NCBI RefSeq assembly: GCF_004168285.1
Contig: NZ_SEWF01000033.1
Span: forward strand, 1 to 64,000
Source: Emticicia agri
GTDB taxonomy: Bacteria; Bacteroidota; Bacteroidia; Cytophagales; Spirosomataceae
DNA: 64,000 nucleotides
Reading direction: 5' to 3'
The notes under the pieces are model-generated. The model was not told the origin of the DNA, did no database searches, and saw only the letters and a list, made by a program, of their open reading frames with translations. A program made the position numbers and the translations under genes. Positions 48,067 to 49,522 of this stretch are shown here, in pieces. How positions within the stretch are numbered: position 1 is the stretch's first letter; each line of letters begins with the position of its first letter.

Positions 48067-48105
48067 AAAAAAAAAGGGTTTGATGAGCGATTCACCAAAC
48101 CCTTT
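48067..48105 (-). terminator. Intrinsic terminator of leuA
   Basis: Arms 48073-48082 and 48096-48105 form a 10-bp stem with a 13-nt loop. On the minus strand nine Ts follow (48067-48075 as As on the plus strand). It starts 21 bp after the leuA stop. Confidence 0.88.
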
Positions 48106-48125
48106 CATCATGTATGTTATAGGAA

Positions 48126-49347: not shown

Positions 49348-49387
49348 AAAAAAAGCCCTTTCTCACCGAGTGCAAGAAAGGGCTTTT
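49348..49387 (-). terminator. Attenuator terminator upstream of leuA
   Basis: On the minus strand AAAAGCCCTTTCT-type arms (49351-49363 with 49375-49387) make a perfect 13-bp stem with an 11-nt loop, followed by TTTTTTT. It lies between the leuA promoter and the leuA start, so it can stop transcription before the gene. Its 5' half overlaps the antiterminator strand 49370-49379. Confidence 0.9.
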
Positions 49388-49406
49388 GATTTATACAAAG
49401 TCTCCG

Positions 49407-49416
49407 TTTCTCACAC
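49407..49416 (-). promoter_or_regulatory. Antiterminator 5' strand of the leuA attenuator
   Basis: On the minus strand GUGUGAGAAA (49407-49416) pairs at all ten positions, two as G-U, with UUUCUUGCAC (49370-49379), the 5' part of the terminator. It overlaps the leader stop codon (49411-49413). A ribosome reaching the stop hides it, and a ribosome stalled at the Leu codons leaves it free. Confidence 0.75.
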
Positions 49417-49467
49417 TGTAAAGTTGAGTAGAAGGAGAAGTGAAATTGCGAATGCGGTTTGTTTCAA
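49411..49467 (-). CDS. leuA leader peptide, 18 codons with five consecutive Leu codons
   Basis: From TTG at 49465-49467 the frame reads (M)KQTAFAISLLLLLNFTV and stops at TGA 49411-49413. The five Leu codons CTT CTC CTT CTA CTC lie at 49426-49440. The size, position between promoter and attenuator, and run of Leu codons fit an amino-acid attenuation leader controlling leucine synthesis. The start codon is the least certain point: TTG is the best-placed initiator, and there is no ATG in frame. It is far too short for ordinary gene finders. Confidence 0.8.
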   Translation of the reverse strand: MKQTAFAISLLLLLNFTV

Positions 49468-49491
49468 TTGTTTTTGAATTTTCCAAGGACA

Positions 49492-49522
49492 CAAATTTAG
49501 TAGAATATTTTTTTTTGGCAAA
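49492..49522 (-). promoter_or_regulatory. Promoter of leuA and its leader
   Basis: On the minus strand TTTG (49519-49522), a 19-bp spacer and TAAATTTG (49492-49499) match the Bacteroidota consensus exactly. Transcription would begin near 49486, about 20 nt before the leader start and 210 nt before leuA. The rest of the 564-bp leuA-pyk gap (to 49841) is AT-rich with only the pyk promoter visible. Confidence 0.8.

Follow-up and report, generated by a model that had tools for sequence, protein, structure and literature searches.

A probable ribosome-mediated leucine attenuator upstream of leuA in Emticicia agri, with related leaders at ilvD and trpE in the Spirosomataceae

Leader-peptide attenuation is textbook knowledge in Proteobacteria, and the enteric leuL-leuABCD attenuator likewise has, ahead of leuA, a leader with a run of Leu codons together with an antiterminator and a terminator that exclude each other. 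In other phyla there are actinobacterial amino-acid leader attenuators (PMC1262725) and a Leu-rich attenuator peptide in Staphylococcus aureus, which also controls branched-chain synthesis and acts alongside the repressor CodY (PMC5794164). From the same phylum as the locus described here, in another class, Flavobacterium psychrophilum is reported to show strong clues that leader-peptide attenuators precede amino-acid biosynthesis operons; the section of that paper on conserved 5′ elements names pheA and hisG, and leuA, ilvD and trpE go unnamed in that section (PMC9723704). Leader-peptide-like small open-reading frames receive a passing mention in Bacteroides (PMC7366714), a paper on his genes in the superphylum mentions attenuation in its general section (PMC8305728), and PMC4833913 cites a 2010 comparative study by Lopatovskaya et al. 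For Spirosomataceae or Cytophagales, the open-licence literature searched yielded no description of a leader at leuA, ilvD or trpE. A first-pass annotation of this locus had called such attenuation little studied in the phylum, which agrees with that literature, though the flavobacterial work (PMC9723704) means that it is not unreported.

Here we describe an element upstream of leuA which is very probably a ribosome-mediated leucine attenuator, a reading drawn from its sequence and from comparison with relatives. It lies on the minus strand of the window, by which we mean the whole 64,000-nucleotide stretch of Emticicia agri DNA that was analysed.

Parts of the leuA leader

Promoter, TTG-started leader, Leu codons, antiterminator, terminator and T7 tract were confirmed base by base at the coordinates given by the first-pass annotation (Table 1).

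Table 1. Coordinates of the leuA leader elements in the window
Feature	Position	Strand	Basis
Promoter TTTG-N19-TAAATTTG, presumed Bacteroidota-type	49492..49522	minus	direct sequence reading
TTTG box, followed by a 19-nt spacer	49522-49519	minus	direct reading
TAAATTTG box	49499-49492	minus	direct reading
Leader open-reading frame, 18 codons, (M)KQTAFAISLLLLLNFTV*; TTG start at 49467, TGA stop at 49413-49411	49411..49467	minus	direct reading
Control codons, five consecutive Leu (CTT CTC CTT CTA CTC)	49426..49440	minus	direct reading
Strand 1, Leu-codon region, pairable with strand 2 if the ribosome is absent	49422..49438	minus	RNA folds
Strand 2, 5′ strand of the antiterminator, overlapping the leader stop codon	49407..49417	minus	reading, duplex test, covariation in relatives
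Strand 3, within the terminator 5′ arm and loop, partner of strand 2	49369..49379	minus	reading, duplex test, covariation
Intrinsic terminator hairpin; arms AAAAGCCCTTTCT (49387-49375) and AGAAAGGGCTTTT (49363-49351)	49351..49387	minus	reading, RNA fold, covariation
Terminator T7 tract	49348..49354	minus	direct reading
leuA, short 2-isopropylmalate synthase, 383 aa	48126..49277	minus	NCBIfam NF002086, Pfam

The promoter follows what we take to be the consensus of the phylum, and a looser form of the pattern matched in all ten closest loci with sufficient upstream sequence, this one included. The leader reads TTG AAA CAA ACC GCA TTC GCA ATT TCA CTT CTC CTT CTA CTC AAC TTT ACA GTG TGA, and both sequence and structure place an intrinsic terminator between it and the first structural gene. 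The terminator has 13 bp between its named arms and 16 bp in the RNA fold; this hairpin was missed by a simple terminator scan of the window, perhaps owing to the four of the seven T residues that are also part of the stem. The antiterminator pairs GTGTGAGAAA (49416-49407) with TTTCTTGCAC (49379-49370) at 10 of 10 positions, two of them G.U, and gains one extra pair, A49417-U49369. The competing helix between strands 1 and 2 folds at −9.9 kcal/mol (RNA fold of 49440-49400).

Both the fold and the pairing exceed what shuffled sequence gives. The fold of 49488-49345 has z = −3.9, with none of 200 shuffles as low, and the duplex between the 60 nt ahead of the terminator and the terminator 5′ arm has z = −6.0 (0/200 shuffles). 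Runs of five Leu codons are not rare alone, the window holding 13 in its six frames. The combination is scarcer: among the window's 51 open-reading frames of 120 aa or more, nine have a terminator-like site within 330 nt upstream, four of these nine have a small open-reading frame 15-40 nt ahead of that site, and only the one at leuA carries at least three of one amino acid consecutively.

Conservation, covariation and geometry across the family

Short LeuA is present in 145 of 150 genomes of the family (E ≤ 1e-100), the nearest named LeuA found being that of Emticicia sp. BO119 (97% identical). Upstream regions were usable at 143 of the 145 loci, L007 and L200 having been dropped for too little upstream sequence. 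A terminator lies within 160 nt of leuA in 78 of the 143 regions, spread over 19 of 35 genera, and 66 of these 78 loci, from 17 genera, also have a significant antiterminator duplex (p ≤ 0.05, 200 shuffles); the mean z across all 78 is −3.26, and in the other 12 the duplex falls short of that threshold. No terminator was found within 160 nt of leuA in the remaining 65 loci; among loci of this kind leuA seems to follow directly after leuB in three (by eye), and many others have a promoter-like match about 55 nt before the leuA start.

To avoid choosing leaders by their content, the leader at each terminator-bearing locus was picked by position alone, blind to its residues, as the longest ATG open-reading frame that has 9-30 codons and stops 15-40 nt short of the terminator, or failing that the shortest TTG or GTG frame. 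Such a leader was found at 77 of the 78 loci. Leu makes up 27% of residues in frame, the share falling to 10% in the +1 frame and 7% in the +2 frame, and the mean of genus means is 0.28 (19 genera). Every one of the 77 has at least two Leu besides the start codon, so that the leaders devoid of Leu codons which the first-pass annotation had named as evidence against attenuation did not appear; 51 have at least four Leu and seven have just two (three in genus g5, three in g2 and one in g31). The comparison of related upstream regions which that annotation had proposed thus returned Leu codons, antiterminator and terminator together, and the mutually exclusive helices were borne out by the duplex scores here and in the relatives, and by the covariation of both helices described below. 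L012 and nine loci of the window's genus, this one included, are the ten closest; in each the leader starts with TTG and has four or more Leu in a row, and the leaders picked outside these ten start with ATG. Leaders of genus g5 (L115, L118, L119, L126 and others) share a conserved RLQ-x-L-x-VF ending and have fewer Leu codons than other genera.

The Leu codons themselves are skewed. The 333 in the 77 leaders comprise 109 CTT, 99 CTC, 53 CTA, 38 CTG, 17 TTG and 17 TTA, set here against usage in 43 open-reading frames of the window (TTA 34.4, TTG 20.6, CTG 19.3, CTT 13.8, CTA 6.6 and CTC 5.3%) and not against the usage of each genus. The CTT, CTC and CTA control codons of the Emticicia leader are therefore rarer in the window than TTA, TTG and CTG, and five codons drawn solely from these three have p = 0.001 under window usage. 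Pairing of CTCC with strand 2 may account for part of this bias, and the choice of codons suggests that CUN-reading tRNA-Leu is what the leader senses.

For covariation we aligned 52 leuA leaders drawn from 75 distinct regions: L017, L117 and L120 were excluded beforehand, near-identical leaders were thinned to 53, and L029 was then removed because its positional open-reading frame looked to be in the wrong frame, while being kept in the locus counts. The terminator helix is 90% paired, with changes on both sides at 8 of 14 pairs (reached by 4/500 shuffles) and 52 both-sided-change cells against a shuffled mean of 14 (0/500, and the best among slides), and its covariation score exceeds all 500 shuffles and every slide. 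In the antiterminator helix pairing stands at 81%, and 6 of the 11 pairs show changes on both sides (reached by 91/500 shuffles), with 36 both-sided-change cells against a shuffled mean of 19 (0/500); its covariation score of 0.242 against 0.181 is matched by none of 500 shuffles and is the best among slides.

Measured from the first base of the leader stop codon, the start of strand 2 falls within −9 to +8 nt in all 66 significant loci. From the start of the last Leu codon to strand 2 the median distance is 12 nt, and in at least three loci that codon lies inside the strand. Given the usual size of a ribosome footprint, this spacing roughly fits a ribosome on the Leu codons freeing strand 2 and one at the stop codon covering it. 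Nascent folds point the same way, and together with the spacing they support the stalling and stop geometry predicted by the first-pass annotation: while a ribosome occupies the Leu codons and strand 4 has still to be transcribed, strands 2 and 3 pair at −16.3 kcal/mol, and with a ribosome at the stop the terminator folds at −22.5 kcal/mol. In the full-length RNA with a ribosome on the Leu codons the terminator is still the lowest-energy fold (−23.6), so that antitermination must be kinetic. In the ribosome-free nascent RNA the helix of strands 2 and 3 wins before strand 4 is made, which makes strand 1 a weak protector, and on these folds an untranslated leader might read through.

Leaders at ilvD and trpE, and a shared palindrome

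The same architecture recurs in other pathways of the genome. The Emticicia ilvD leader (L310), MSTNKVIIVPIILLLNK, is rich in Ile, Val and Leu (VIIVPIILLL) and is followed by a terminator 82 nt ahead of the protein match and by a perfect 10-bp antiterminator (z −3.97, 1/500 shuffles), the 5′ strand of which starts right after the leader stop. In relatives we took 30 loci each for ilvD and trpE, these being the best-matching places from 61 genomes each and not a random draw (59 and 60 of the 61 genomes had a match, respectively), and added the Emticicia ilvD region to the 30; at ilvD a terminator up to 220 nt ahead of the match was accepted, against 160 nt at leuA. Of the resulting 31 ilvD loci, 30 were long enough, 17 have a terminator within that distance, and the antiterminator is significant in 14 of these; L252, one of the 17, looks spurious. 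Ile and Val together make up 33% of residues in the 17 ilvD leaders against 13% in the 77 leuA leaders (Mann-Whitney p = 4e-8, computed on rows that are not phylogenetically independent).

The leader of the Emticicia trpE cluster (L312 / L315), MTQQNIIANIWWWRSSDKG, contains WWW, is followed by a terminator and sits ahead of a 136-aa open-reading frame overlapping trpE. A leader with at least two Trp near a terminator was present at 30 of 30 trpE loci, this one included, in a scan run without a chance control; three Trp stand in a row in 28 and two in the other 2. The Emticicia trp antiterminator is weak, being equalled by 263/500 shuffles with the standard target and by 25/1000 with a target widened after inspection. 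By eye, and with a scan for small His-rich or Thr/Ile-rich open-reading frames, no attenuator was seen before hisG or thrA of this genome, nor by eye before leuC (operon leuC-leuD-cimA-like-x-leuB). Leader codons thus change with the pathway while the architecture stays constant, which is the signature that ribosome-mediated attenuation predicts.

This pattern bears on what else the element could be. A riboswitch, T-box or RNA-binding protein might govern the terminator, with the small open-reading frame incidental, and covariation of the terminator and of the helix of strands 2 and 3 would be equally expected of such a device; yet neither the window (at gathering thresholds) nor eight loci (up to E = 1) gave an Rfam match, leader residues track the pathway at leuA, ilvD and trpE, and the antiterminator is located at the leader stop codon in every significant locus, which leaves this explanation very unlikely. 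We give still less weight to the idea that the frame encodes a genuine small hydrophobic peptide, signal-like or membrane-bound, whose own terminator the hairpin merely is: KQTAFAISLLLLLNFTV does resemble a hydrophobic segment, but some leaders from other genera are not hydrophobic (for example MNNSLPNRLQKLYVF) and nevertheless keep the Leu codons and antiterminator, and the trpE leaders carry Trp instead. Chance placement of a Leu-rich frame close to a terminator, for all that five-Leu-codon runs are common, is barely credible given helices that covary, the matching ilvD and trpE devices, and a terminator with positional leader in 19 of 35 genera, 17 of them with a significant antiterminator.

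Beside the attenuators, the palindrome GCGAAATTTCGC or a near variant, often after ACGC-N5, stands just downstream of the promoter at many of these loci (for example L228, L239, L112, L141 and L368). The form GCGAANNTTCGC occurs in 61 of 143 leuA and 19 of 30 ilvD upstream regions, where 0.04 and 0.01 are expected with uniform bases. At leuA it starts 27 nt after the start of a −7-like box in 41 of the 50 cases with a box found before the palindrome; at ilvD only seven −7-like boxes were found, and the distances run from 8 to 250. A longer form, CGC-N4-6-GCGAAAWTTCGC, was matched at 13 sites in ten of 18 genomes searched: each of the ten has one a short way upstream of leuA, two further sites directly precede ilvD and the last lies elsewhere (L227). 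It had no match in the other eight genomes, including all three of the window's genus, Emticicia agri among them. Genome G134 has a second exact palindrome, ahead of ilvD. The palindrome is absent before the Emticicia agri leuA; a variant, GCGAAGATTCGC, precedes its ilvD leader, and one exact copy of the palindrome is found elsewhere in the genome (L364). Enrichment of the bare palindrome GCGAAWNTTCGC was not clear and we set it aside, a reversed control having given more matches in two of seven genomes.

Taken together, we consider it reasonably likely that the Spirosomataceae possess a coordinated set of attenuators for Leu (leuA), Ile/Val/Leu (ilvD) and Trp (trpE), that in many genera leuA and ilvD share GCGAAATTTCGC as an unrelated second control element, at a near-fixed promoter distance at leuA, which would be a putative operator of a branched-chain regulator or a 5′ RNA element, and that transcription and translation are closely coupled in these bacteria. 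These bacteria are not known to use Shine-Dalgarno initiation, and it is in this setting that such an attenuator set would mean close coupling.

The LeuA enzyme, the proposed mechanism and known systems

LeuA scores 594 bits against NCBIfam NF002086 (cut-off 532) and has the Pfam domains HMGL-like and HCS_D2 only, lacking LeuA_dimer. A second homolog in the genome (L240:7995-9512) is long, has the LeuA_dimer domain and lies within a leuC-leuD-x-leuB cluster. This long homolog is closest to the citramalate synthase CimA, though below the cut-off of the CimA model, so that the short LeuA is probably the only isopropylmalate synthase of the genome, and citramalate may be the route to isoleucine. 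A terminator-like hairpin (window 48072-48106, minus strand) lies about 20 nt beyond leuA and overlaps the start of a listed LD-carboxypeptidase open-reading frame; leuA is probably transcribed alone, and the LD-carboxypeptidase frame probably starts further in than listed.

The first-pass annotation had read the attenuator as fitting the missing feedback domain, a link which is plausible and which our comparison does not support: short LeuA is near-universal in the family, whereas an adjacent terminator is not, and a long LeuA gene (L299) also has an attenuator. We therefore rejected it as unproven. Outside the family (20 short and 19 long LeuA genes), leuA mostly lies behind another long open frame, and 2 of the 20 short and 2 of the 19 long genes have a leader with at least three Leu that ends well ahead of a terminator. 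The antiterminator is significant at one short (L276, 12/500 shuffles) and one long (L299, 2/500) gene, and reaches 36/500 at L280 (short) and 71/500 at L297 (long); L279 (short) was left uncounted as its frame runs into the hairpin, and L274 (short) has a terminator with no leader of at least three Leu. A LeuA lacking an allosteric domain could still be regulated by way of the attenuator, although no link between the two features emerges from the comparison.

We propose that transcription would begin a few nucleotides past the −7 box and that a ribosome would initiate the leader at the TTG codon. When charged tRNA-Leu is scarce, the ribosome would stall within the run of five Leu codons, strand 2 would be free to pair with strand 3 before strand 4 exists, the terminator would not form in time and leuA would be transcribed. 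When leucine is ample, the ribosome should reach the stop codon inside strand 2 and cover this strand, whereupon strand 3 would pair with strand 4 and transcription would end near 49348. Put simply, leucine synthesis is very probably switched on only when leucine is short. The conserved leu, ilv and trp set offers ready-made reporters for coupling of RNA polymerase and ribosome without Shine-Dalgarno initiation, and makes for better regulon annotation in a family of environmental bacteria.

The proposed mechanism is a long-established one, described here in a phylum that has been little studied. Compared with the enteric leu attenuator, leuA is here probably transcribed alone, the leader follows a Bacteroidota promoter and starts with TTG, its stop codon is overlapped by strand 2, and the protector formed by strands 1 and 2 is weak.
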